Shown one piece after another: positions 1,174-17,229 of a stretch of 20,233 nucleotides of DNA (within the stretch, counting starts at the first letter, position 1; each line of letters begins with the position of its first letter). The stretch covers positions 1 through 20,233 of the IMG/VR virus record IMGVR_UViG_3300037963_000187. One strand, 5' to 3'. The notes beneath the pieces are model-generated. The model did not search any database and had not been told where the DNA came from. It saw only the letters and a program-made list of their open reading frames with translations. The translations under genes and the position numbers were made by a program. The stretch is from a virus.

Positions 1174-1444
1174 AGATAAAAAATATTTTAAGAAAATAAT
1201 CCAAGAAGGATGCTGTGTTCCAGGTTGTATGTCTAATTCACCAATGAATGTTCATCATCTACGTGGTAGCCAGGTTCAACATAATAGATCTAATCAGCTT
1301 GTAGTACCATTGTGTTTTGAACACCATTCGGATCTGACATGGGGTAAGTATAAACCAGAACATAAGTTTTGGGAACATCATAGTTTTGATGCAGTAGAAT
1401 ATGCTAATGAACTGTACCAGAAATACGTGTCTGAACGACACTAA
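1154..1444 (+). CDS. Small HNH-like (Ref/DUF968-type) zinc-binding nuclease candidate
   Basis: A 96-residue protein with the ligand pattern C20-C21-x3-C25, then NVHH (32-35), then PLCFEHH (52-58). A cysteine pair, a His-His strand and a C-x-x-H-H after a beta turn is the pattern of small treble-clef HNH proteins such as phage Ref/DUF968 relatives, which nick or cut DNA. An ATG at 1142 is also in frame, but GAGGAAGG (1134-1141) directly abuts it. The ATG at 1154 (MAKYTSK) leaves a 12-nt spacer and is preferred. It overlaps the phosphoesterase by 20 nt, and its 3' end overlaps the convergent - strand gene by 41 nt. Fold assignment is likely; nuclease activity is inferred. Confidence 0.7.
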   Translation: MAKYTSKDKKYFKKIIQEGCCVPGCMSNSPMNVHHLRGSQVQHNRSNQLVVPLCFEHHSDLTWGKYKPEHKFWEHHSFDAVEYANELYQKYVSERH

Positions 1445-1637
1445 GTTCTTTCATACGTTCTTTGATAGCATCTGTAGTTTGATTTTTGTTTATCTTTTTG
1501 CCTGATAGCGAAGCTGCCATGATGGCATATGCTGCAAAAATAGTATCGGTACTATAACCGAACTGTTTAAGGTAGACACTGTAATCGTTGAGTGTGTCTA
1601 CTAACTCGTCTAATTCACCTTTAACAATCATTGTCAT
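1404..1637 (-). CDS. Hypothetical small protein, last gene of the early operon
   Basis: A 77-residue protein I do not recognise. The N-terminal half is acidic (ELDELVDTLNDY), followed by a helix rich in Ala/Ile/Met (about 28-43, containing TIFAAYAIMAASLSG) and a basic/acidic C-terminus. No signal peptide or clear transmembrane helix. Two possible ATGs lie 6 nt apart (1637 and 1631), with only a weak GAAAG upstream. It is the promoter-distal gene of the leftward operon and runs 41 nt into the 3' end of the convergent HNH-like gene, so the two transcripts would be complementary there. It is separated from ssb by a structured gap of about 270 nt, one stem of which falls in its 5' leader. Confidence 0.55.
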   Translation of the reverse strand: MTMIVKGELDELVDTLNDYSVYLKQFGYSTDTIFAAYAIMAASLSGKKINKNQTTDAIKERMKELSVVQTRISGTVH

Positions 1638-1658
1638 TAATTCTTTCTATCATTTAGG

Positions 1659-1724
1659 GGGTGCTAATACTAGAGGATATATACACGAAAATAATTCCTT
1701 TCACTATAGTTTGTACTAGCACCC
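1659..1724 (-). promoter_or_regulatory. Stem-loop in leader of the 77-aa gene
   Basis: Arms GGGTGCTAATAC (1659-1670) and GTACTAGCACCC (1713-1724) form a 12-bp stem with a 42-nt loop. The single non-Watson-Crick position is A-C in a + strand RNA but a G-U wobble in a - strand RNA, which favours the - strand as the transcript. The stem ends about 21 nt upstream of the 1637 start codon. It could terminate or shield transcripts from ssb or control translation of the downstream gene. No U-tract follows, so a simple intrinsic terminator is not evident. Confidence 0.5.
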
Positions 1725-1784
1725 ATATTCCCCAACAACCTAGCTAGGTGAAGGTTTTACCTTACATAACGAGGGGGAAACTTT

Positions 1785-1894
1785 ACTGTGTAGGCGTGTA
1801 GCCACCTGCATTATAGACCATGAGCACAGAGCCTTACCTCAGGAACTTTCGTCTATTGCATTAAGCTCACTACCTTATGTCTTTCCTACACAGT
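1785..1894 (-). ncRNA. Candidate structured RNA downstream of ssb
   Basis: A 110-nt segment closed by a perfect 10-bp stem, ACTGTGTAGG (1785-1794) with CCTACACAGT (1885-1894). Inside it is a second stem, TGCA-TT-ATAGAC (1807-1818) with GTCTAT-TGCA (1851-1860), plus a short pairing of GTAG with CTAC between them on the - strand. The nesting is consistent and gives a rod-like fold with an apical loop of about 32 nt. G+C is 29/60 at 1801-1860. The closing stem starts 12 nt after the ssb stop codon. It may be a 3' stability element, a terminator-like structure, a separate small RNA or a DNA-level element. No tRNA, tmRNA or other RNA family was recognised. Confidence 0.45.
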
Positions 1895-1906
1895 TCCATA
1901 TGGAAA

Positions 1907-2311
1907 CTAAAATGGTATATCACTAGGGATATCATCATCTGGTAAGTCATTAGATGACTGCTGTTTAGCATCACCTTTGCTGCTTACCATCTTCATAATA
2001 CCCATTCTAGGGATAATGATAGAAGTGTTATAACGTTTGTTACCATTACTATCTGTGTATTCAGATACATCTATCTCACCTTCAAGATATAACATTGTAC
2101 CTTTCTTCACATAGTTCTTGATAGTCTGTGTTAGATTAGGATCAAAGGTAGTAACCTTGTGCCAAGTAGTTTTCTCTTGCCACGTACCATCTTTGGTCTT
2201 GATCTTCTTTGAAGTTGCAAGGCTAAAGTTAGCAAACTCATCACCTTTACTGGTAGCTTTGATCTCTGGATCTGTACCCAATCTACCTACTAGTATTACT
2301 CTGTTAATCAT
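1907..2311 (-). CDS. ssb: Single-stranded DNA-binding protein (SSB)
   Basis: OB-fold SSB that coats single-stranded DNA in replication and recombination. The 134-residue chain opens with MINRVILVGRLGTDPEI, the standard bacterial SSB first strand, continues through W-x-E-K-T-T-W-H-K-V around 44-53, and ends in the acidic tip DDDIPSDIPF, the usual partner-docking tail. It is shorter than most bacterial SSBs because the linker is brief. AAGGAGG lies just upstream of the ATG. It is in the same operon as the annealing protein and the YqaJ exonuclease, which fits a phage recombination/replication module. Confidence 0.95.
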   Translation of the reverse strand: MINRVILVGRLGTDPEIKATSKGDEFANFSLATSKKIKTKDGTWQEKTTWHKVTTFDPNLTQTIKNYVKKGTMLYLEGEIDVSEYTDSNGNKRYNTSIIIPRMGIMKMVSSKGDAKQQSSNDLPDDDIPSDIPF

Positions 2312-2312
2312 A

Positions 2313-2621
2313 TTACCTCCTTAACTCTACTAGGTTATCTTCTGACTTTACCTTTGGTCTAGGAAAAGCCTTTTCAATCTTCTTAATGATGTCATTCATT
2401 AATAGATTCTCACACATTCTAATCGCTTTCCTCTTAGCAGTTGCGTAAGAATCCCAATCAGATTTATGTTGATTCTTGATGAGAGTATCATCAATAGTTA
2501 GCCTCCATTTAGTAACGGAGTCTTGAAAGCGAGGAGTTACCTTCACTATGTTTACTATAATATTTAGGCTATGCCCATATGCTATAGTTGTTTGGTAATG
2601 TCCAGCTCTTATACACTTCAT
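2313..2621 (-). CDS. Hypothetical protein in the recombination module
   Basis: A 102-residue protein of unknown function between the annealase and ssb genes. The N-terminal half looks like beta strands (IIVNIVKVTPRF), the C-terminal half is helical and basic (KRKAIRMCENLL, then IIKKIEKAF). No metal-binding or catalytic motif is visible. An AAGGAGG precedes the ATG. The start overlaps the annealase stop by 4 nt (ATGA), which suggests coupled translation, and the stop lies within the ribosome-binding region of ssb. The position suggests an accessory role in DNA metabolism, but nothing in the sequence proves it. Confidence 0.75.
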   Translation of the reverse strand: MKCIRAGHYQTTIAYGHSLNIIVNIVKVTPRFQDSVTKWRLTIDDTLIKNQHKSDWDSYATAKRKAIRMCENLLMNDIIKKIEKAFPRPKVKSEDNLVELRR

Positions 2622-3112
2622 GTAACCTCCTTAACTTTTGACTTATCTACATTAGATTTAATATCTGCTTTGACTTTTTCAACGTACTTACTGCTATCAT
2701 GTAAACCTAAGAATACATCTGCACTCATACCTAGATGCGACATAGCTTTAGTTAGTGCATCTGTCATAGCTTTCTTAGGTGCTTCATCATCTAGCTTACC
2801 ATTGTTTTTGTACAATGATTGAACTGAAGATACAGGTCCAAAGCCACCAACACTTGAATGTGAACCAGCCCACATCTTTAACTCACAGAACACTAAAGTA
2901 TCTGTATACTTGTACTCAGCGTTCCACTGCCAACCTTCACCAATCGGACCGAATACTTCAGTCATCTTTCCGATCTGCCACATTGGATCAATAGTTGTTA
3001 TCTCACCAAAGCCTTTGTTGATCTTCTTAGTAAAGTCTGGGTTAGTAACTTTAAGTTGATCCCAGTATCTTTTGTGTTCTTCTGGCTTAGCCAGTGGTTT
3101 ATATTTAGTCAT
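2618..3112 (-). CDS. Rad52/Erf-type single-strand annealing protein
   Basis: Predicted recombinase that anneals complementary single strands exposed by the neighbouring exonuclease. The 164-residue chain contains a glycine-rich beta region (about 60-100, ending in GGFGPVSSVQSL) followed by the conserved helix-turn DEAPKKAMTDALTKAMSHLG (109-128) and ADVFLGLHDSSKY (131-143). This matches the D/E-x-x-K-K-A-x-T-D-A-L-x-K-A pattern of Rad52/Sak/Erf-like phage annealases. The C-terminus is Lys/Val-rich and unstructured. It follows the exonuclease with an 8-nt overlap (ATGACTAA). Family-level call is good; the exact subfamily is uncertain. Confidence 0.8.
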   Translation of the reverse strand: MTKYKPLAKPEEHKRYWDQLKVTNPDFTKKINKGFGEITTIDPMWQIGKMTEVFGPIGEGWQWNAEYKYTDTLVFCELKMWAGSHSSVGGFGPVSSVQSLYKNNGKLDDEAPKKAMTDALTKAMSHLGMSADVFLGLHDSSKYVEKVKADIKSNVDKSKVKEVT

Positions 3113-3716
3113 TAGTTCCTCCTATTGAATCGAACTCTACATAATCAGCAGGTTCTTCATCATTGATAATATGTTGCCAAAACATTTCCTCTGCCTTGAT
3201 TAGTTTCTTTTGAAACTTCTTGTCAGCTTGTACATGAAATGATTTCCATTTATTATTACCAAAGATAATAGATAACCATGCTTGTGGTAAATTAGATACA
3301 ATCATATAGTGCTGTATCTGTGCATAGTATTTCTCTAGTATAGTATCATCTTTAGTAAATGCGTGTACGTGCTTTGCTTCAAAGACACCTACTGTTTTAA
3401 GATCTTGGTTTAATACAAAGCCATCTAGATTAGCCATCATCCACTTACTTCCATTCTTATCTACTGGATTGTGTACGAGTGTCCAATCACATTCTTTAAC
3501 TGGCATATCTGTTTGTGCAGTAAACCAATCTCTATTGAAATCTTCGGTATATATACCTAGCTGTACTGGTAGCACAAAAGATAGATCTTCATTTTCTTTC
3601 AGACCTTTCTTCTCTAGGTATAGATCTTTCCAAGTACCAGCTACTATCTTAGTAGCATCACTTCCTCCGATCCCTTGACTTCTGTCTATAACTTTCTTTT
3701 GCTTGTGAATATTCAT
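3105..3716 (-). CDS. YqaJ-type (lambda-exonuclease-like) recombination nuclease
   Basis: PD-(D/E)xK nuclease expected to resect DNA ends for the adjacent annealing protein. Visible motifs are GIGGSDA (15-21), the helix glycine/acid G54-x4-E59 region (GIYTED), the catalytic aspartate in NLDGFVL (D98) and the E113-A-K115 motif in GVFEAKHV. The motif YYAQIQHYMIV downstream is also typical of the YqaJ family. At 203 residues it is of normal length. AGGAAGG lies 3 nt before the ATG, and the first 59 nt lie inside the preceding gene. Operon order exonuclease, annealase, unknown, SSB is a Red-like module. Confidence 0.9.
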   Translation of the reverse strand: MNIHKQKKVIDRSQGIGGSDATKIVAGTWKDLYLEKKGLKENEDLSFVLPVQLGIYTEDFNRDWFTAQTDMPVKECDWTLVHNPVDKNGSKWMMANLDGFVLNQDLKTVGVFEAKHVHAFTKDDTILEKYYAQIQHYMIVSNLPQAWLSIIFGNNKWKSFHVQADKKFQKKLIKAEEMFWQHIINDEEPADYVEFDSIGGTND

Positions 3717-3996
3717 TTACCTTCCTCTCGATAATATTATCAAATTCTTTTTTTCTTGACCATATTTCATTAGCTATCTTTTTGATACTAGGTTGAACAT
3801 ATGGTTTAGTTAGTTCAATACGTAATGCGTTAGCTACATCCCTGCCTTTTTCTAGATATGCAAAGTAACAAACGGATCTGATCCATGCTTGTTTACGCTG
3901 CATGGGATCACGAAGATTATACTTTCTTCGTTGTGGTTTGAGTTTCTTTTCATTAACTAGTTTTCGGGCCAGAAATTTAGGATCTATCGTATTCAT
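3658..3996 (-). CDS. Hypothetical basic protein upstream of the exonuclease
   Basis: A 112-residue, strongly basic protein (clusters KKLKPQRRKYNLR near 17-29 and RQKSRDRRK at the C-terminus) with helical segments and one conserved-looking stretch, AWIRSVCYFAYLEKGRDVANALRI. No zinc or catalytic motif. The start ATG overlaps the DUF3310 gene by 20 nt and has no strong Shine-Dalgarno sequence, which suggests coupled translation. Its last 59 nt encode the exonuclease N-terminus in another frame. Charge suggests nucleic-acid contact, but function is unknown. Confidence 0.65.
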   Translation of the reverse strand: MNTIDPKFLARKLVNEKKLKPQRRKYNLRDPMQRKQAWIRSVCYFAYLEKGRDVANALRIELTKPYVQPSIKKIANEIWSRKKEFDNIIERKVNEYSQAKESYRQKSRDRRK

Positions 3997-4177
3997 CTAT
4001 GGCTTTTTGTAGATACCACAGAGCTTTCTGTAGATCTACGACTCCTCCTTTGAACTTATGTCTAACAATATATTTTATCACATTTCCTAATGGATATGAT
4101 AATTTTTTTTCCATTATAAAATCATAAGTTTCAATTTTGCCTTGCTTGTAATGGCTCGGATTTATCTGATCTGTCAT
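3977..4177 (-). CDS. DUF3310 family protein
   Basis: A 66-residue protein with the full DUF3310 signature: INPSHYKQG at 5-13, a Phe-Ile helix, then GNVIKYIVRHKFKGG (32-46) and DLQKALWYLQKAI. Family members are widespread in phages, often near nucleotide metabolism or replication genes; some databases name them nucleotide kinases, but no kinase motif is visible here. The start has GGTGG about 10 nt upstream and lies 47 nt inside the preceding gene. Family secure, biochemical role unknown. Confidence 0.85.
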   Translation of the reverse strand: MTDQINPSHYKQGKIETYDFIMEKKLSYPLGNVIKYIVRHKFKGGVVDLQKALWYLQKAIDEYDRS

Positions 4178-4415
4178 AGGGATTCCACCTCACATCTATT
4201 AGTCTATAAGTCTTACCACTATACACTGATTTCTGTGGTGTGCCTATATTTAAATCAATATCTTTAAGCCTTGATGGTGTAAGCATCATTACTTCACCTT
4301 TGTGAACTGCCTGGATAGTATAGTTCTTATCAATGGCTTGTTGGATTTCGTAATCTCTTAACGAGATATACATACCTTTCCATAGTTTTTTAACTATTCT
4401 TGTTTTTGTTTTCAT
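4131..4415 (-). CDS. Hypothetical protein upstream of DUF3310
   Basis: A 94-residue unknown protein with a very basic N-terminus (KTKTRIVKKLWKG), a predicted beta-rich middle (YTIQAVHKGEVMMLTPSRL) and a hydrophilic tail. AGGAG lies 5 nt before the ATG, a good start. It is the first gene after a 158-nt noncoding gap that follows the DUF932 gene, so it may begin a new translational or transcriptional unit. Its last 47 nt overlap the DUF3310 gene. Confidence 0.7.
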   Translation of the reverse strand: MKTKTRIVKKLWKGMYISLRDYEIQQAIDKNYTIQAVHKGEVMMLTPSRLKDIDLNIGTPQKSVYSGKTYRLIDVRWNPYDRSDKSEPLQARQN

Positions 4416-4491
4416 AATAACTCCTGTTGTAACATTTGATACATAACAGATTATTTCCTGTCGTATCTATGTTTATCATCATTGGTAAAGT

Positions 4492-4567
4492 GTACTTCCT
4501 CCCACATAGAAAGCATTGTTGGATGGGAGTACTTTTGGAGGAGGAAGGATTAGATTGTACTCCCATC
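4492..4567 (-). promoter_or_regulatory. Hairpin with competing pairings in the DUF932 3' region
   Basis: A perfect 11-bp inverted repeat, GATGGGAGTAC (4522-4532) with GTACTCCCATC (4557-4567), begins 6 nt past the DUF932 stop codon. In the - strand RNA the loop carries CCTTCCTCCTCC (complement of 4537-4548), which matches the GGAGGAAG complement of 4494-4501; the segment at 4492-4504 can also pair with TGGGAG of the stem. Two mutually exclusive folds are therefore possible. No U-run follows, so it is not a textbook intrinsic terminator. The remaining bases of the 4416-4573 gap show no gene. Confidence 0.5.
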
Positions 4568-4573
4568 TAAACT

Positions 4574-5377
4574 CTAGGCAGCTTGGCTAAACCAAGCCAT
4601 GTTAGACACTTTCCTCTCTCTATCATAGCGAGTATTTACTGAATCGCTAGGATAATGTGTACTCCAATGCGTGATTGCTTGATATGCACTGAATTTATTA
4701 GGTCCAAACTTCTGTGCATAGTTATCATTGTACTCAATAAGAATAAAATTCTTGTGGTTTTGATTGACATGACTCTTGTCAGTACGTGTTGGTTGATAGC
4801 ATAACTTATCTACTTCAGCTTCGAACTGATAGTCATCTACTGGTATTTCTAACCAGTTAGTCATGTAGTTATGTACAGTATGTAGTCCATCAATAGCTGC
4901 ATAACCACCAGGTAATGCTAGTTTAATCTCACCACTACCTTTGTGTGCAGTATTTAAACTGATATCCCATACTGAACTCTTGAGTCCATTAAGACATAGC
5001 CATAGATAGAAACCTAAATCAAATCTAAATGAACGCATACCATTGTAGCTGTTCCATATCACAGCTTCTAGACCAATAGATGTATCTTTGAATGGTATCT
5101 GATACTCTGGTAAAGAGAATCTAGTAGCCATCACAGCACCATTGTTAGAGTGCTTGTGTTGTTCAGTCATACCGTTGGTATCAAAGTGTTCATTGAGAAA
5201 GTCAATAGCTTTATCATACGCTGTGTCATGTGAAATGACTCGGTATGTGTTTTTGTGAACTGCAATCAGTTCGTTGTTATCTTCTTTAACCAACTGCTTG
5301 TAGCCATCTAGCCTTGAGCCATGTTGATTGTATACAGGTTCTTCACGAACCTGAAATAGTAGTTCTTGTGGTAACAT
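4574..5377 (-). CDS. DUF932 (phage/plasmid-like) protein
   Basis: A 267-residue protein of the DUF932 / phage-plasmid-like family. It opens with a region that presents GSRLDGYKQLVKEDNNELIAV and KNTYRVISHDTAYD, the usual N-terminal beta-rich part, has a middle with RSFRFDLGFYLWLCLNGL and ends in a helical region with YAQKFGPNKFSAYQAITHW. The biochemical function of DUF932 is not established; members are common in phages and plasmids and often well expressed. AAAGGAGG lies just upstream of the ATG. Unlike its neighbours it overlaps no other gene: about 290 nt of structured sequence precede it and a hairpin-bearing gap follows, so it looks like an insulated expression unit. Confidence 0.8.
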   Translation of the reverse strand: MLPQELLFQVREEPVYNQHGSRLDGYKQLVKEDNNELIAVHKNTYRVISHDTAYDKAIDFLNEHFDTNGMTEQHKHSNNGAVMATRFSLPEYQIPFKDTSIGLEAVIWNSYNGMRSFRFDLGFYLWLCLNGLKSSVWDISLNTAHKGSGEIKLALPGGYAAIDGLHTVHNYMTNWLEIPVDDYQFEAEVDKLCYQPTRTDKSHVNQNHKNFILIEYNDNYAQKFGPNKFSAYQAITHWSTHYPSDSVNTRYDRERKVSNMAWFSQAA

Positions 5378-5390
5378 ATTTCCTCCTTTG

Positions 5391-5432
5391 TTACATTCGC
5401 CAAGGGCGAGGGATTAGTGTTATTACCCTCAT
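5391..5432 (-). CDS. Possible 13-residue leader peptide of DUF932
   Basis: A short open frame, MRVITLIPRPWRM, starts at 5432 after a GAAAG and stops 13 nt before the DUF932 start codon, directly before its Shine-Dalgarno sequence. Its codons cover both arms of the small hairpins at 5398-5408 and 5408-5430, so a translating ribosome would open them. The arrangement resembles a leader peptide, but an ORF this short can arise by chance. Confidence 0.2.
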   Translation of the reverse strand: MRVITLIPRPWRM

Positions 5433-5671
5433 GCTTTCAGCTACAGATATACATTCATCATTTGCCTACTTACAACCACCTTCGAATACCTCAGGCATTT
5501 GCCCATACTTCATCTCCAGTGTACCTTACGCCTCTGTATAGACGTTATTCAGTCAGCCGATACTGATAGCTATTCAGTACCACGAAACTTCGAGAGCCGA
5601 CACCATGCTATTCATAGGTGCTTTAGCGGTGATCATGGTCCACTAGCACTAGCTCTCTCGCTCAGCGAAAC
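5391..5671 (-). ncRNA. Candidate structured RNA / long leader upstream of DUF932
   Basis: A gap of about 290 nt in an operon where genes otherwise overlap. G+C is 30/60 at 5581-5640 versus 18/60 in the adjoining coding 5701-5760. At least five inverted repeats follow one another: GAGAGC/GCTCTC (5592-5597, 5652-5657) enclosing ACCATG/CATGGT (5602-5607, 5634-5639); TACTGA/TCAGTA (5561-5566, 5574-5579, 7-nt loop); TGCCT/AGGCA (5463-5467, 5493-5497); GAGGG/CCCTC (5408-5412, 5426-5430); CGCC/GGCG (5398-5401, 5405-5408). A direct repeat CGAAACTT (5583-5590, 5666-5673) flanks the first domain. No known riboswitch, tRNA, tmRNA, group I intron or RNase P signature was recognised. Strand is inferred from the flanking genes. 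Confidence 0.5.
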
Positions 5672-6082
5672 TTATAACTCTGCTCTAAATGAACAGAACT
5701 TATCTGATTTAACACGATCTAGTATTTTTTTACCTAGTTCATATCGTGCATACCACATTAGATAGTAGTGGTATTTACTTTTTTGATGATCTTCTATTGA
5801 CTGACCTGTTTCTGGTACAGGTACATTCAATAGCTTACACATTTCTTCTCTAGTATAGCCATCATTCTTTTTGAAGAAATCATCTAGTAAACCTTTTCTC
5901 CAATCTAAACGCTGACAACATTCATCTAAACCTGCTTGTATTTTTGGTATATGTTCATCATCAAAATAATATTCAAGATAATCTGGTTGAAATCCTATTG
6001 ATCCAAAGAAATCTGCATCATTACTAGATTGTATACCAAACCAGAACTTACCTTCTATATCACCCTCGTAATATCTACCCAT
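5672..6082 (-). CDS. Conserved hypothetical protein
   Basis: A 136-residue acidic/aromatic protein. The opening MGRYYEGDIEGKFWFGIQSS, followed by DYLEYYFDDEHI, is a pattern I associate with a small unknown phage/metagenome family; no function is known to me. The middle (EEMCKLLNVPVPE) and the tyrosine-rich helix KYHYYLMWYARYELGKKIL complete it. AAAGGAGG lies 9 nt before the ATG, and the start overlaps the upstream gene by 8 nt (ATGGGTAG). It is the last gene before the structured gap upstream of DUF932. Confidence 0.75.
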   Translation of the reverse strand: MGRYYEGDIEGKFWFGIQSSNDADFFGSIGFQPDYLEYYFDDEHIPKIQAGLDECCQRLDWRKGLLDDFFKKNDGYTREEMCKLLNVPVPETGQSIEDHQKSKYHYYLMWYARYELGKKILDRVKSDKFCSFRAEL

Positions 6083-6326
6083 TTCTAATAGCCTCCTTTA
6101 GTTTTACTGCTGCTTCATTTAAATACTTAATCGTATGTGTTGTTTGAATTAGTTCTGCTTCTACATTATCTATAGTAGAACAGAGTTGTGTTATCATTTC
6201 ATTATGTACTAACACAACCTCATCAAACTTATGTCTAGATACAACATCAGTAGGAGCTATATCATCATACATTTTTTGTACTGACTCAATCCATCTGAGT
6301 TGTAATACTTTCATTGACTCACTCAT
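6075..6326 (-). CDS. Hypothetical helical protein
   Basis: An 83-residue, almost fully helical protein with heptad-like hydrophobic spacing (KVLQLRWIESVQKMYDDI, then MITQLCSTIDNVEAELI), suggesting a coiled coil. No catalytic or zinc motif. GGAGG lies upstream of the ATG, and it overlaps both neighbours by exactly 8 nt (ATGAGTGA upstream, ATGGGTAG downstream). Function unknown. Confidence 0.7.
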   Translation of the reverse strand: MSESMKVLQLRWIESVQKMYDDIAPTDVVSRHKFDEVVLVHNEMITQLCSTIDNVEAELIQTTHTIKYLNEAAVKLKEAIRNG

Positions 6327-6510
6327 TATCTTCCTCCTTCATATCCACTGGCTCTAGCCATTCACCATGTCCTTCACATTCTTCACATGGATCACATTCA
6401 TCAGGAGCATTACCCCATGGTATTACACCTAGTCCATTACATCTAAAGCATGGTACGGACACACTAAACTCAACGTTTAAGTCCGTTTCTGCATATGTTT
6501 TTGTACTCAT
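6319..6510 (-). CDS. DnaJ-type zinc-finger miniprotein
   Basis: A 63-residue protein containing two CxxCxGxG motifs, CFRCNGLG (21-28) and CEECEGHG (42-49), the zinc-binding unit of DnaJ/Hsp40 cysteine-rich domains, but with no J domain. Such stand-alone units can bind proteins or act in disulfide or zinc chemistry. The start is ATG 6510: GGGAGG lies 6 nt upstream, whereas a longer reading from TTG 6531 would place that Shine-Dalgarno inside the gene. Overlaps the preceding gene by 41 nt and the following one by 8 nt. Zinc binding is well supported by motif; role unknown. Confidence 0.75.
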   Translation of the reverse strand: MSTKTYAETDLNVEFSVSVPCFRCNGLGVIPWGNAPDECDPCEECEGHGEWLEPVDMKEEDNE

Positions 6511-6697
6511 CTCGTTCCTCCCAAGTTTCAATTAGTTTATTCAAACGATCACTTACATCTTTGATACGATCCTCTAAATTTTGTGATGCTTCAAATACAT
6601 ATTTAGCATCAGTCATAATTACTCCTGCTTCTTCTTGGCATTTACCAAGATCAGTTAGTATATTCTCAATGACATTCTTATCTAATAGATTACTCAT
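6470..6697 (-). CDS. Hypothetical coiled-coil protein
   Basis: A 75-residue helical protein (ENILTDLGKCQEEAG, then NLEDRIKDVSDRLNKLIETWEER) with heptad-type spacing. A longer frame starts at 6781, but that part lies wholly within the preceding gene. GAGAGGGAAG stands right before ATG 6700/6697. ATG 6697 gives the 8-nt overlap (ATGAGTAA) seen at several junctions in this operon and is chosen here. Function unknown. Confidence 0.65.
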   Translation of the reverse strand: MSNLLDKNVIENILTDLGKCQEEAGVIMTDAKYVFEASQNLEDRIKDVSDRLNKLIETWEERDEYKNICRNGLKR

Positions 6698-6980
6698 CAT
6701 CTTCCCTCTCTGGTATATCTTCGTAGTCTGGATCTGGATAGTCATCTCGGATTGCATCATCAACAACATCATAGATCTCATCCTTTAGTCTGAATGGATA
6801 TCCTCCTTGCAACATTGATATATAGCAGTTTTCTTTTAGTTCCTCCCATGTATCAAATCCTACGAACTTGTTTTCATCATATACTTTCATTAGATAATCT
6901 AATGCTTCATCATCTAGAGTATCACCCTCATAGTCTGATGGTGGTATATCACTGTCTTGTATTTTCTTTAGTAATGACAT
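6690..6980 (-). CDS. Hypothetical highly acidic protein
   Basis: A 96-residue protein very rich in Asp/Glu, with about half of its C-terminal quarter acidic (DDAIRDDYPDPDYEDIPERE). The centre (FVGFDTWEELKENCYISML) looks helical. Highly acidic early phage proteins sometimes mimic DNA or inhibit host nucleic-acid-binding proteins, but there is no direct evidence here. AAAAGGAGG lies about 6 nt before the ATG, one of the stronger ribosome-binding sites in the operon, and a 17-bp palindrome lies next to it. Confidence 0.7.
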   Translation of the reverse strand: MSLLKKIQDSDIPPSDYEGDTLDDEALDYLMKVYDENKFVGFDTWEELKENCYISMLQGGYPFRLKDEIYDVVDDAIRDDYPDPDYEDIPEREDDE

Positions 6981-6990
6981 TTATTCCTCC

Positions 6991-7007
6991 TTTTGAATAA
7001 TTCAAAA
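6991..7007. repeat. Perfect palindrome upstream of the acidic-protein gene
   Basis: TTTTGAATAATTCAAAA reads the same on both strands around a central base, with 8-bp arms. It lies immediately upstream of, and on the - strand runs into, the AAAAGGAGG ribosome-binding site of the 6980 gene. It could be an operator for a dimeric regulator or a hairpin that hides the ribosome-binding site. The 7008-7034 stretch holds no gene. Confidence 0.45.
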
Positions 7008-7034
7008 CATCGGATTCGGACCTTACAATCTAAC

Positions 7035-7052
7035 GCAAGGCTTAAGCCTTGC
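7035..7052 (-). repeat. Perfect 18-bp palindrome at the 3' end of the 41-aa gene
   Basis: GCAAGGCTTAAGCCTTGC is a perfect palindrome with no spacer and contains the TAA stop of the small membrane-protein gene. As RNA it would fold with a tight loop centred on the stop codon; as DNA it is a dyad. No U-run follows on either strand, so termination is uncertain. It may separate two parts of the operon. Confidence 0.5.
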
Positions 7053-7167
7053 TGTCGTCATCCAGTATTTGACGTACAAATTTATATGATAGATATCCTC
7101 CTACTATCATAGATATAATATATAATACTAGAACAATAGATCCTAGCACAGATAGTACTGTCATCAT
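7042..7167 (-). CDS. Small single-pass membrane protein
   Basis: A 41-residue protein, short N-terminus then a long hydrophobic segment (VLSVLGSIVLVLYIISMIVG) and a charged tail ending in QILDDDSKA. A single-span membrane peptide of unknown function. Two ATGs (7167, 7164) are adjacent; the first overlaps the stop of the preceding two-span membrane protein by 4 nt (ATGA), which supports coupled translation. AAAGG is present about 8 nt upstream. The stop codon lies inside an 18-bp palindrome. It is easily missed because of its length. Confidence 0.6.
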   Translation of the reverse strand: MMTVLSVLGSIVLVLYIISMIVGGYLSYKFVRQILDDDSKA

Positions 7168-7457
7168 TGTTTCTTACCTTTCTTTTTGTTCACAATGTAT
7201 TTGGTTACACGATTAGCAGTAAACACAATGTATATCCATACTGGAGCTGCGATTACAGATAGCACCAGAGTTGGATTGATACCCAACAATAGCATCATAA
7301 ATACAAACCCACCACCAAGTGATAGATATACGATAACAAATGTTCCTATATAATCTGCATTAGATTGGAAATCAAAACTTGTCAGAGCTTTGAATATATC
7401 CTTGAACATCGTTATGATTGATAGACTTAATACGCCTAATATTTTTCCTATGGTCAT
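7164..7457 (-). CDS. Two-span membrane protein
   Basis: A 97-residue protein with an amphipathic hydrophobic N-terminus (about 5-17), two membrane helices (39-59, with GGGFVFMMLLLG; and 62-81, with VLSVIAAPVWIYIVFTA) and a strongly basic tail (KKKGKK). Two spans plus a basic tail is a shape shared by holins, antiholins and superinfection-exclusion proteins, so the function cannot be fixed. GGAAGGAGTG lies about 5 nt before the ATG. It is preceded by an overlapping tiny membrane-protein frame and followed by another one. Confidence 0.75.
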   Translation of the reverse strand: MTIGKILGVLSLSIITMFKDIFKALTSFDFQSNADYIGTFVIVYLSLGGGFVFMMLLLGINPTLVLSVIAAPVWIYIVFTANRVTKYIVNKKKGKKQ

Positions 7458-7509
7458 TGTTACACTCCTTCCACATTACATATATTAGAAAACATAAAGC
7501 TAATTCCAT
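7372..7509 (-). CDS. Possible 45-aa membrane peptide overlapping the two-span protein
   Basis: From ATG 7509 the frame encodes a 45-residue peptide with an N-terminal hydrophobic stretch (ELALCFLIYVMW) and a basic hydrophilic remainder (HRKNIRRIKSI). GAGGGAGG stands 6 nt before this ATG, a strong reason to believe it. The last 86 nt overlap the next gene in another frame, and that gene's own ribosome-binding site lies inside this one. A longer frame from TTG 7560 has no matching site. Function unknown. Confidence 0.45.
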   Translation of the reverse strand: MELALCFLIYVMWKECNNDHRKNIRRIKSINHNDVQGYIQSSDKF

Positions 7510-7541
7510 ACGGACCTCCCTCAGTTCATCCCACTCGATAT

Positions 7542-7576
7542 AAAAAAAATAGTTGGACAATGGGGTAGAAACCCCA
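7542..7576 (-). terminator. Possible terminator after the 167-aa gene
   Basis: TGGGGT (7561-7566) and ACCCCA (7571-7576) form a 6-bp stem with a 4-nt loop just past the stop of the gene ending at 7595. On the - strand a run of eight T follows (complement of 7542-7549), but 11 nt after the stem, further than in a classic intrinsic terminator. It could cause partial termination within the operon. Confidence 0.4.
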
Positions 7577-7594
7577 CTATCCCAAATAAAACTT

Positions 7595-8098
7595 TTACTT
7601 CAGCATAGACTCTGTCAATCGCTGCACATCTGCCAATTCCTTTGGTGTCATGTCTTTCAATGTTCTGACACTACCATTTGACTTCTGTGGCAATTTACGT
7701 TTTTTGTAATCCTCTTGGTATAATTCAAGATACAACTTAGCTGCTGCCTCATTCATAGCTTGAAATTTACGATACAAAGCATCATATGTTTTTGCAAGAG
7801 CTACCTGACTGTCAAAGTTAGTCTGTGCTATTTCTTGACCTGTCGTTGCAACACGCTCATTGATAATACTGTCTTGCAAATTATCTTTTGCTTTATCGTA
7901 ATATCCTTTGAATGTTTGCATTGATTTGAAAGTGCTGTTGCAAATACCCCACAGGTAGATATTCATATACTTGGTATCAATACCAGATGTTTGATCTACT
8001 TGTGCTTGGTAAATACTATACCAATCTACCCCTGTCATTGCATTGATTGCATCAATTTCAGCGGCATTAGTTTCGATACGTGGAACAAAATTAGTCAT
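7595..8098 (-). CDS. Hypothetical early protein
   Basis: A 167-residue hydrophilic protein with many helices, Tyr- and Gln-rich (VDWYSIYQAQVDQ; LYLELYQEDYKKRK), and a C-terminal motif TLKDMTPKELADVQRLTES. I do not recognise it. The start ATG 8098 (MTNFVPRIE) follows GGAGG by 6 nt; an upstream frame to 8131 lies within the preceding gene and is rejected. It overlaps that gene by 8 nt (ATGACTAA). Third gene of the leftward operon, so likely expressed early. Confidence 0.7.
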   Translation of the reverse strand: MTNFVPRIETNAAEIDAINAMTGVDWYSIYQAQVDQTSGIDTKYMNIYLWGICNSTFKSMQTFKGYYDKAKDNLQDSIINERVATTGQEIAQTNFDSQVALAKTYDALYRKFQAMNEAAAKLYLELYQEDYKKRKLPQKSNGSVRTLKDMTPKELADVQRLTESMLK

Positions 8099-8282
8099 AT
8101 ACAACCTCCAATTCTTGTTGTGTTTGTTCATCTAGCTCTGCAAGATCCTCATAACCCATATACTGGTTAATACTTGCTAGAGTATTTTCCTCTAGAGCTG
8201 CCTCATCAAACTTTTTCTGAGCTTTTAAATCCCTAATTCTCTGAACTTGTTTGACGTATTCTTCTTCAAATGGATTAAACAT
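8091..8282 (-). CDS. Hypothetical small acidic protein
   Basis: A 63-residue, helical, acidic protein (FEEEYVKQVQRIRDLKAQKKFDE, then DLAELDEQTQQELEVVYD). ATG 8282 is preceded by GAGG at 6 nt spacing. Overlaps both neighbours by 8 nt (ATGTTTAA at its start, ATGACTAA at its end). Function unknown. Confidence 0.65.
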   Translation of the reverse strand: MFNPFEEEYVKQVQRIRDLKAQKKFDEAALEENTLASINQYMGYEDLAELDEQTQQELEVVYD

Positions 8283-8466
8283 TTTTATCCTCACTTTCTT
8301 CTATCGCCTTGGCGAGATCCTCTATCGCCTGATGGTAACCATCTATGTAAAGCCAATCTGGTCCATCACCACCCCCTGATTTCTCAAGTTCTTGTTTTTT
8401 TGTAATACCGATCCATTTGAGTTTCTGAAGCAGTATGAAGCCAGTACGTAAATCTAGTTTTTTCAT
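8275..8466 (-). CDS. Hypothetical first gene of the leftward operon
   Basis: A 63-residue protein, MKKLDLRTGF at the N-terminus, a Gly-rich turn (SGGGDGPDW) and an acidic C-terminal helix (AIEDLAKAIEESEDKNV). AAAGGAG lies 7 nt before ATG 8466, so the longer frame from 8502 is not needed. It is the first gene transcribed leftward from the divergent control region, and one arm of the long inverted repeat there (8481-8505) forms its 5' leader, immediately upstream of the ribosome-binding site. Function unknown. Confidence 0.65.
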   Translation of the reverse strand: MKKLDLRTGFILLQKLKWIGITKKQELEKSGGGDGPDWLYIDGYHQAIEDLAKAIEESEDKNV

Positions 8467-8480
8467 TATATAACTCCTTT

Positions 8481-8648
8481 CTAGATTTCTAAAGATTATC
8501 ATAAACTTTAGTCAAGGTTGGCGAGACGCACGAGCCTATCTCAATGTCGCACACCTTCGTGCGATATTTAGACGATTTTGGAGGAATCAGCGCCTCGAAG
8601 CGCCCTCCAAAATTGCCTTGCACTTTTATGATATCCTAGTAAATCTAG
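8481..8648. repeat. 168-nt element with long imperfect terminal inverted repeats
   Basis: The left end 8481-8505 and right end 8625-8648 are reverse complements with few mismatches: CTAGATTT (8481-8488) with AAATCTAG (8641-8648) and ATCATAAA (8498-8505) with TTTATGAT (8625-8632), joined by mostly matching spacers. Inside, TCGCAC (8547-8552) pairs with GTGCGA (8559-8564), or CGCACGA (8527-8533) with TCGTGCG (8557-8563), and ATTTTGGAGG (8575-8584) pairs with CCTCCAAAAT (8604-8613) around an inner GCGC/GCGC stem with a 6-nt loop. It lies exactly between divergent early and late genes. A replication origin, a bidirectional control element, a structured RNA or a MITE-like insertion are possible. 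Confidence 0.6.
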
Positions 8649-8779
8649 AGAGAGAGAAGGACTAACCGAACAGACTCGATTGTCTTGGCATCTGCGTAGC
8701 AGATCTAAACACGTGGATCGCTGTGAGCTAGTCTTAGAACTCAGAATACTATGTATTCATCGGCTAGGAGGGTGGTTCT
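8649..8779 (+). promoter_or_regulatory. Leader of the late operon
   Basis: A 131-nt noncoding stretch before the small terminase gene. It begins with a purine-rich GAGAGAGAGAAGGA and contains a tight hairpin, ATCTGC-GTA-GCAGAT (8690-8704). AGGAGGG about 7 nt before ATG 8780 is the ribosome-binding site. A late promoter must lie here or in the adjoining repeat element, but I could not place -35/-10 boxes with confidence. Confidence 0.45.
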
Positions 8780-9238
8780 ATGCCACCACGAGTAGACGAT
8801 ACAAATGATTACAAAAAAGTACTTGACAGCCAATATTGGCACAAGGTATCTATCGTTATGGCTAGGACAATGAAAGGTCAAGACGGTTTGACATATAAAC
8901 AGAGGTTATTGGTCGATACCCTCGTAACGTCTGGTTGCACCATAACCGAAGCTGCGAAAAAGGCAGGATATTCTAAGACAGAAAGTGGTAGAGTAATAGC
9001 GTCAAGGACGTTACGAATCCCAAAGGTCCAAGAGTACTACCGACAACAGGTAGCCGAGATAGGACTGCTTGGTTCAATCCCAGCAGTTAAGACTTTGGTT
9101 AGGCTTTCCAGTGAAGCCAAGAGTGATTACGTGAAGCTCGAAGCCAGTAAAGATATCCTTGATCGGTCTGGGTTCAAAGCTCCTCAGACTCCTACTATAG
9201 CTGCTGCAAATTTGTCTATAAAGATCGACATAGACTAA
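8780..9238 (+). CDS. terS: Terminase small subunit
   Basis: DNA-recognition subunit of the packaging motor. The 152-residue chain contains the Terminase_2-type helix-turn-helix region: LTYKQRLLVDTLVTSG (37-52), TEAAKKAGYSKTESGRVI (56-73) and RIPKVQEYYRQQ, the pattern of an LT-x-KQ-x-x-F/L-V helix, an A-A-x-x-AGYS turn and the V-x-x-Y/F helix. AGGAGGG precedes the ATG. It is the first gene of the rightward operon and lies about 1.35 kb ahead of the large subunit, separated by small basic-protein genes, an unusual spacing. Confidence 0.8.
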   Translation: MPPRVDDTNDYKKVLDSQYWHKVSIVMARTMKGQDGLTYKQRLLVDTLVTSGCTITEAAKKAGYSKTESGRVIASRTLRIPKVQEYYRQQVAEIGLLGSIPAVKTLVRLSSEAKSDYVKLEASKDILDRSGFKAPQTPTIAAANLSIKIDID

Positions 9239-12116: not shown

Positions 12117-12496
12117 TATATTTTTATGATCCACCCCATGAGGAGTGGTATCATGTATTTAGAAGAAAGAATATGGCTCATTGTGGTATGTTAGGATTTG
12201 ATGTGAAACAACAAAAATGGATAGCTATAGAACATATTCACAAAAGATTAGATATTAAAATACTCGATGGTGAAGATGTAGCTAAAGTCTTTGATTTTGT
12301 TAAAGCTATGAATGGTAAGTTTATAAAAGCTAAATTATTCAAGCAAAAGTTTAGATTATTCCAGGCTGCATGGTTAAGAGAACATTCATGCGTAACTACT
12401 ATAATGAGAGTACTAGGAATAAATAAGTTGATTATTACCCCTTATCAGTTATATAAATATTTAAAGAAACAAGGTTGTGAACAATGGGATTTTTAA
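12089..12496 (+). CDS. Possible permuted papain-like (NlpC/P60 or LRAT-like) protein
   Basis: A 135-residue protein starting with GTG 12089 after AGGAGGAA. It begins with short strands (WLIYFYDPPHEEWYHVFRR), then H31-C-G-M-L-G-F-D and W-I-A-I-E-H49, and later S-C101-V-T-T-I-M-R-V-L-G followed by TPYQLYKYL. A histidine on an early strand, an acid/His on the next strand and a cysteine at the start of a later helix is the order of circularly permuted papain-like folds. This is my reading of spacing, not a proven family. In virions such enzymes may cleave peptidoglycan or lipids. It overlaps terL by 28 nt. Confidence 0.6.
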   Translation: MGYFPKEWLIYFYDPPHEEWYHVFRRKNMAHCGMLGFDVKQQKWIAIEHIHKRLDIKILDGEDVAKVFDFVKAMNGKFIKAKLFKQKFRLFQAAWLREHSCVTTIMRVLGINKLIITPYQLYKYLKKQGCEQWDF

Positions 12497-16395: not shown

Positions 16396-17229
16396 ATGAC
16401 AGCAACAATAGATCAAGCATTTGTGAAACAGTTTGAAGCTGAAGTTCACATGGCTTATCAACGTATGGGTTCAAAATTGAAGCCCATGGTACGTAATGTC
16501 AATGGTGTAAAAGGAAATACTGTTCAGTTCCAAAAAGTAGCGAAAGGTTCTGCTTCAACTAAAGCAAGACACGCTGAGGTTGTCGCTATGAACTCTGTTC
16601 ACTCAAATGTAACTGCAACACTATCAGACTTTTATGCTGCTGATTACGTAGACAAACTAGACGAACTAAAAGTAAACATTGATGAGAGAAACATTGTAGC
16701 ACAAAATGCTGCATATGCTCTAGGTCGTAAGACTGATGAAATCATCACTGATACTTTTGATGCAGGTGCAACTGCTTTAGCTAACAACTCTGCTGGTTCA
16801 ACTACTGGTATGAACTTAGACAAAGCTCAGAATGTTTTTGAAATCTTTGGCAACAATGATGTGCCAGATGATGGAGGAAGATACTGGGTAGTCGGTCCAA
16901 AACAGTGGTCTGACCTATTAGATATAGATCAGTTCTCAAGAGCTGAATATATCGGTGAAGCAGATCTACCTTACAAAGGTGGAATGACAGCTAAAAGATG
17001 GTTGTCTTTCATGTGGTGTGGTTTTAGTGGTCTACCAACATCTGGTTCAACAGATAGACACACTATGGCTTTCCATAAATCATCTCTAGGTTTAGGTGTA
17101 GGTTCAGACGTAAGAACTGAAGTGAACTATATCCCTGAGAAAGTAGCACACCTTACAACTTCATATATGTCAATGGGAGCAGTCCTAATTGACGGTGATG
17201 GTGTAAGAATCCAGAAGTGTGCAGAGTAG
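16396..17229 (+). CDS. Major capsid protein
   Basis: A 277-residue coat protein. Position after the scaffold, length, and the pattern TIDQAFVKQFEAEVHMAYQR, GNTVQFQKVAKGSA, VDKLDELKVNIDERNIVAQN, the long Ala/Thr-rich stretch and the C-terminal domain with MSMGAVLIDGDGVRIQKC fit phage capsid proteins of the HK97-fold group found with T7-like portals. AAAGG is 8 nt before the ATG. It is followed by a small probable decoration protein and a terminator, which fits high, separate expression of capsid components. Confidence 0.85.
   Translation: MTATIDQAFVKQFEAEVHMAYQRMGSKLKPMVRNVNGVKGNTVQFQKVAKGSASTKARHAEVVAMNSVHSNVTATLSDFYAADYVDKLDELKVNIDERNIVAQNAAYALGRKTDEIITDTFDAGATALANNSAGSTTGMNLDKAQNVFEIFGNNDVPDDGGRYWVVGPKQWSDLLDIDQFSRAEYIGEADLPYKGGMTAKRWLSFMWCGFSGLPTSGSTDRHTMAFHKSSLGLGVGSDVRTEVNYIPEKVAHLTTSYMSMGAVLIDGDGVRIQKCAE

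Follow-up and report, generated by a model that had tools for sequence, protein, structure and literature searches.

The phi29-type pRNA is about 170 nt long, has paired 5′ and 3′ ends and a junction bearing hairpins, and keeps its structure while its sequence varies; the phages that use it are not known to carry a TerS/TerL pair. Antisense regulators with which a structured phage RNA may be compared include lambda OOP and the plasmid copy-number antisense RNAs. In staphylococcal phages, a structured RNA from the terminase region, the cabRNA, triggers CBASS immunity (PMC10686824). The put RNA of phage HK022, in turn, is about 70 nt long, and its two stem-loops form a short way 3′ of an early promoter (PMC9378689). 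Further, GOLLD, ROOL and other large structured RNAs, some of them in phages, were found comparatively and have no assigned function (PMC12286853, PMC2864571).

The locus considered here lies in a stretch of 20,233 nucleotides, hereafter the window, comprising the whole of the 20.2-kb IMG/VR record IMGVR_UViG_3300037963_000187. It is a fragment of the genome of a marine podovirus belonging to the group of pelagiphage EXVC031P “Hodr.” In the large terminase it shares 65.9% identity with this Pelagibacter phage, which is available as an isolate together with its cultured host, Pelagibacter HTCC1062. A BLASTN search with the element described below against 50,697 phage records gave no match, since its sequence turns over too fast for such a search; homologues were reached through the terminase proteins instead, and 280 loci were gathered in this way, the IMG/VR contigs of the relatives being mostly fragments. 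The genes and sites around the element are laid out as follows.

~1400-8466, minus strand: leftward genes (SSB, exonuclease-type, RecE-like, DUF932)
8275-8466, minus strand: first gene of the leftward operon, with start codon 8466-8464, product MKKLDLRTG... and a Shine-Dalgarno sequence that is the complement of 8474-8480
8450-8457, plus strand: U repeat AAATCTAG, where the leftward gene encodes Leu-Asp, identical to sequence in the R arm of the element and complementary to the L arm
8474-8656, plus strand: probable structured RNA element, with a closing helix P1 and a multi-branch core of three hairpins, from minimum free energy (MFE), covariance model and covariation
from ~8780-8858, plus strand: rightward genes (TerS, TerL, head-tail adaptor, capsid)
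8780-9238, plus strand: terminase small subunit gene, terS (PF03592), true start probably 8858
8823-8852, plus strand: promoter-like site TTGACA-N18-TATCTA of the terminase operon, 3′ of the element and kept in most relatives
OQ414635.1, ~12200-12370, minus strand of that record: the corresponding element of Hodr

The start at 8780 corresponds to the longest open reading frame and is probably wrong; in four relatives (L047, L048, L053, and L171) a TAA directly precedes the ATG equivalent to 8858.

The element is 183 nt long, with a G+C content of 42.9% against 35.8% for the window. Its MFE is −75.5 kcal/mol, and comparison with shuffled sequence, a check put forward in the original prediction, gave a z of −10.2 on the plus strand, where none of 200 shuffles folded as well, and of −6.0 on the minus strand, where again no shuffle was as good. 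The fold is thus far beyond chance. With the scan aligned on the element, nothing else met in the window folds as well, 180-nt stretches elsewhere reaching −60.9 at best. The second-best folding region (16786-17100, plus strand, z about −5) lies inside the major capsid gene. The parts of the element and the region directly 3′ of it are as follows.

8474-8516, plus strand: 5′ arm of P1 (L arm), forming 36 pairs with 8617-8656; P1 covaries (helices 1 to 5)
8520-8536, plus strand: hairpin H1, GGC-GA-G..C-GA-GCC, with tandem G.A mismatches
8539-8572, plus strand: hairpin H2, with two-sided changes in 8 of 13 pairs
8573-8615, plus strand: hairpin H3, with a 5-nt bulge AAUCA (8585-8589) and an inner GCGC stem
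8617-8656, plus strand: 3′ arm of P1 (R arm), ending in AGAGAGAGAG; the GAGAGAG terminus recurs in relatives
8658-8740, plus strand: second, weaker folded domain, with z −1.7 alone, conserved in close relatives (89% mean identity)

All coordinates in the original prediction proved correct. Its terminal arms, 8481-8505 and 8625-8648, form 22 base pairs, and this helix grows outward and inward to the 36 pairs of P1; the 10-bp arms 8575-8584/8604-8613 match perfectly and enclose the inner GCGC stem (8590-8593/8600-8603), and the G+C of 30 in 60 at 8521-8580 is borne out. Two competing folds had also been suggested. Indeed, both CGCACGA (8527-8533) and TCGCAC (8547-8552) can pair with 8557-8564, and this complementarity is kept in six close relatives; however, the alternative is 11 kcal/mol worse (−64.4 versus −75.5) and hence a minor state at best, and the more distant members of the class do not conserve it.

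A covariance model built from the six close relatives, for which E-values are rough, matched in more distant loci (among them L051, L060, L018, L045, L037, and L027), always just upstream of terS. In the resulting alignment of the window class, which was fitted to the structure and whose related sequences are not independent, 91.9% of the cells are paired and 53 of 64 pairs have changed on both sides. The covariation score is 0.469, as compared with 0.155 after shuffling and no more than 0.084 when partners are slid. These figures come from a version that included antisense rows of the near-palindromic element; on removal of these rows and of L109, 17 distinct sequences are left, with at least two Watson-Crick types at 38 of 64 pairs and 57 G.U against 4 A.C. 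In H3, both sides have changed at 10 of the 11 outer pairs and at 3 of the 4 inner ones, and the bulge is kept as RAUCA or UUCA in relatives, and the CGAG..CGAG of H1 is kept in alignments A1 and A2, with L003 having fully Watson-Crick pairs instead. Comparable signals come from two other, independent classes: class B (52 G.U against 0 A.C) and the Hodr class (21 against 7) both have two-sided changes, which in the alignments A5 and A6, made without a model, number 7 of 64 and 16 of 61 pairs. The compensatory changes in the arms, for which the original prediction itself had asked, and the asymmetry between G.U and A.C support the structured RNA that it listed among its options.

The occurrence of the element across the clade was surveyed in 121 nonredundant regions upstream of terS, with z-scores resting on 30 to 50 shuffles. 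A strongly folded element (z < −4) lies just upstream of terS in 107 of the 121 relatives, as against 30 of 117 control windows obtained by the same selection in the neighboring region starting 100 bases into terS; the median z of the best-folding 180-nt window is −6.2 upstream of terS and −2.4 in the control. No place in the entire Hodr genome folds better than its element. A few relatives seemingly lack it (L268, z 0.6; L260, z −1.7), and MEP301, which has a related TerL and co-oriented genes, shows no strong fold upstream of terS. Single-linkage clustering by sequence divides the 107 elements into 38 clusters, between which no similarity can be detected; as all occupy one site, structure and place have been kept while sequence has been lost. 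Certain pieces nevertheless recur between classes, which share the termini CTCCTTTC...GAGAGAGAG. By inspection, a submodule GTGCGACCAG...CTTGTTGCAC with ACCC..GGGTTGAC is found in L023/L094/L181 and L039/L043 (L012 has something akin to it), and another, GTAGTTCG-stem-CGAATAGAGCAT, in L014/L032/L044 and L023. These recurring submodules suggest domain exchange between phages. A second folded domain also follows the element in L044 and L048, before terS; in class B this domain is a different conserved structure, ATTGGGTTGCCT...AGGTCAAT.

To determine the strand under selection in a strand-neutral manner, every element was folded without allowing G.U pairs, and a tally was made of the isolated mismatches that interrupt its helices. 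These number 145 G.T versus 25 A.C on the plus strand and 15 versus 149 on the minus strand, as compared to 25 versus 44 in control regions and a ratio of 1.2 predicted from base composition; each of the two major groups shows this bias (81:11 and 64:14). Therefore, the selected molecule is that of plus, late-gene sense, and a cruciform and a fold of the leftward RNA are both rejected. The excess of G.T over A.C could also reflect a role as folded single-stranded DNA. On the whole, we think it very probable that the element acts as RNA.

Comparison with the described systems points to differences in each case. Like the cabRNA (PMC10686824), the closest functional precedent for a structured phage RNA of the terminase region, the element differs in sequence between phages while its hairpins persist; however, the cabRNA lies inside the terS/terL coding sequence, whereas the element is intergenic, upstream of terS, and covaries strongly over the whole clade. 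The phi29-type pRNA shares with it a similar size, paired ends, a hairpin junction and conservation of structure over sequence, but the phages studied here have a classical TerS (PF03592)/TerL pair, and no conserved loop-loop pairing was noticed on by-eye inspection of the elements. The put RNA is likewise a phage RNA near an operon start, but it is shorter and its placement differs; against its two stem-loops, the element comprises 183 nt with a closing helix and three hairpins. At the element loci, the only promoter-like sites that recur are downstream of the element. GOLLD, ROOL and other large structured RNAs (PMC12286853, PMC2864571) are likewise structured RNA classes, but the element is much smaller, has no Rfam match, and shows extreme sequence turnover at one syntenic site. 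The folded antisense RNAs (lambda OOP, CopA, and c4, RF01695) also overlap a ribosome-binding site on the other strand, the element differing in its multi-branch fold with internal motifs. No family of Rfam 15 matched the window or 20 relatives at gathering thresholds, and this covers c4 (RF01695), which is present in Rfam, along with any curated model for pRNA that Rfam may contain; a group II intron match in the element (E 4) is at chance level and was rejected as noise. The open-licence literature yielded no description of a pelagiphage noncoding RNA or of a structured RNA near the terminase.

Taking these findings together, our best reading is a new class of phage noncoding RNA. We envisage that rightward transcription across the junction would produce a plus-sense RNA clamped at its ends by P1, a helix of ~36 bp that RNase III would be likely to cleave. 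A protein of the host or the phage might then bind the clamped multi-branch core, which includes the tandem-GA hairpin and the hairpin with the AAUCA bulge. The element would work as RNA and apart from the mRNA of terS, for which a separate promoter further downstream appears to be used. A stand-alone or processed, protein-bound RNA is preferred because the tandem G.A, the AAUCA bulge and the junction CUUUAGUC persist amid the loss of sequence and because the promoter-like site of terS lies downstream of the element. That the element is both stand-alone and protein-bound is put forward tentatively, at somewhat less than an even chance. The proposal as a whole, namely, a plus-sense noncoding RNA of a fast-evolving class at the early/late junction of Hodr-like podoviruses, clamped, protein-bound and apart from the terS mRNA, falls a little short of being an even bet.

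The flanks of the element furnish the main alternatives. On the left, 8474-8480 in the L arm is antisense to the Shine-Dalgarno sequence of the leftward gene, and 78 of the 107 loci have such a complement immediately ahead of a leftward start codon close to this arm, with pairing in the long helix in 44. In the window class, AAATCTAG is a third copy of the P1 sequence, and the choice of CTA or CTT follows the L arm across loci (ATCTAG with CTAGAT; ATCAAGA with TCTTGAT); complementarity between the Leu-Asp codons and the L arm averages 5.1 versus 4.2 for arms swapped between loci (maximum 4.5). As these codons covary with the L arm, the leftward mRNA can form a hairpin that has the ribosome-binding site in its loop (8450-8488). 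In other classes, the Shine-Dalgarno sequence lies in a small hairpin loop, ATATC-TCCTTT-GATAT. It is conceivable, by analogy with lambda OOP, that the plus RNA is an antisense regulator that would cover the leader and Shine-Dalgarno sequence of the first leftward gene and shut off early translation at the onset of late transcription, in keeping with the selection on the plus rather than the minus fold. Moreover, the leftward mRNA usually must start inside or beyond the element, so that overlap with the plus RNA is built in. We nonetheless consider such a role unlikely: the Shine-Dalgarno complement is buried in P1, the folds of L227, L232, L243, and L246 are clear of the leftward start by tens of bases, and an antisense RNA has no need of a conserved tandem-GA hairpin or bulge. 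On the right, the element has the same sense as the late operon and always lies just upstream of it, and there is no clear terminator before terS (a search for a general terminator 3′ of the element found none, with 29 loci versus 12 expected and 25 on the other strand), as might suit a cis-acting leader that controls late transcription through antitermination or attenuation, in the manner of HK022 put and the lambda late leader. The conserved promoter-like site speaks against this, since its position between the element and terS means that the terS mRNA probably starts downstream and would not carry the element, which is thus probably not a terS leader; further, put RNAs have only ~70 nt and two stem-loops (PMC9378689), and the distance to terS varies widely among relatives. 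A leader function is accordingly improbable in our estimation. The promoter search across loci found no consistent rightward promoter left of the element. This result, that of the terminator search and the few relatives seemingly lacking the element count against the favored reading, in which the element would be transcribed as a unit. For the bidirectional switch once suggested for this site, the pertinent context is the overlap of the L arm with the leftward ribosome-binding site and the promoter-like site to the right.

A role in replication, recombination or packaging, as folded single-stranded DNA, primer RNA or packaging RNA, would fit the intergenic position adjoining the terminase genes, and the early genes of the window are only SSB and exonuclease-type, with no polymerase, helicase or primase recognized. 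The cumulative GC skew does turn at the element, as anticipated for an origin of replication; however, the skew tracks gene direction, becoming positive again at 1-1500, where rightward genes lie left of the element, and an origin is therefore unsupported. Given also the strand asymmetry against a cruciform, the standard TerS/TerL pair, the want of a strong fold upstream of terS in MEP301, and the presence in Hodr of a protein resembling replication initiators, such roles seem distinctly unlikely. The long inverted repeat in intergenic DNA might also recall a mobile, MITE-like element or a chance hairpin, and the site had originally been labeled a terminal-inverted-repeat element. This label is misleading, as the record contains a single copy at a site fixed across the clade, and what the label calls repeats pair to close a strongly covarying structure; a mobile element is rejected on the former grounds, and a chance fold by the z of −10.2 and the excess of relatives over control windows, leaving both most improbable. 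The original interpretation is thus partly supported.

Returning to the noncoding RNA that we favor, the maintenance of structure over 38 dissimilar clusters at one syntenic site is unusual and raises the question of what recognizes it, and nearly every member sampled devotes 170 to 260 bases of a compact genome to the fold. Pelagiphages are among the most abundant marine viruses. It is possible, albeit doubtful, that this is a clade-wide RNA under pressure to keep its fold while diversifying its sequence, with domains swapped like cassettes; if so, the drivers might be, for example, recognition by host defenses or competing phages, or action as an RNA decoy against the host. Hodr and cultured Pelagibacter HTCC1062 offer a directly testable system for the element. 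In the Hodr record (OQ414635.1, L281), the locus tags belong to phage Baldr (EXVC032PBaldr), and every product is named “hypothetical protein,” though TerL, RecE, SSB and RusA are recognizable.

Some further features were observed around the late promoter-like site, at 8823-8860 in the window and upstream of terS in L002 and L201-L219. In the window type, TTGACA stands at a fixed distance from TATCGTTATG, and with the arrangement TTTACAAT-N-TTGACA-N22-TATCGTTATG the transcript start would fall at or near the ATG, making the mRNA leaderless. The Hodr relatives have TTGACA-N17-TATACT (score 13.0), and in these TTGACA is enclosed by a dyad, GGTAGC..CTACC, the two halves of which change together (GGTGGC..CACC in L209), behaving as an operator with changing specificity would. 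Finally, paired G tracts recur, as GGGGGGAACC..GGGGGAACC in a hairpin of the L201-L208 elements and as GGGGGGGAACACAAGGGGGGG near the promoter in L263-L280, and these could form G-quadruplexes.
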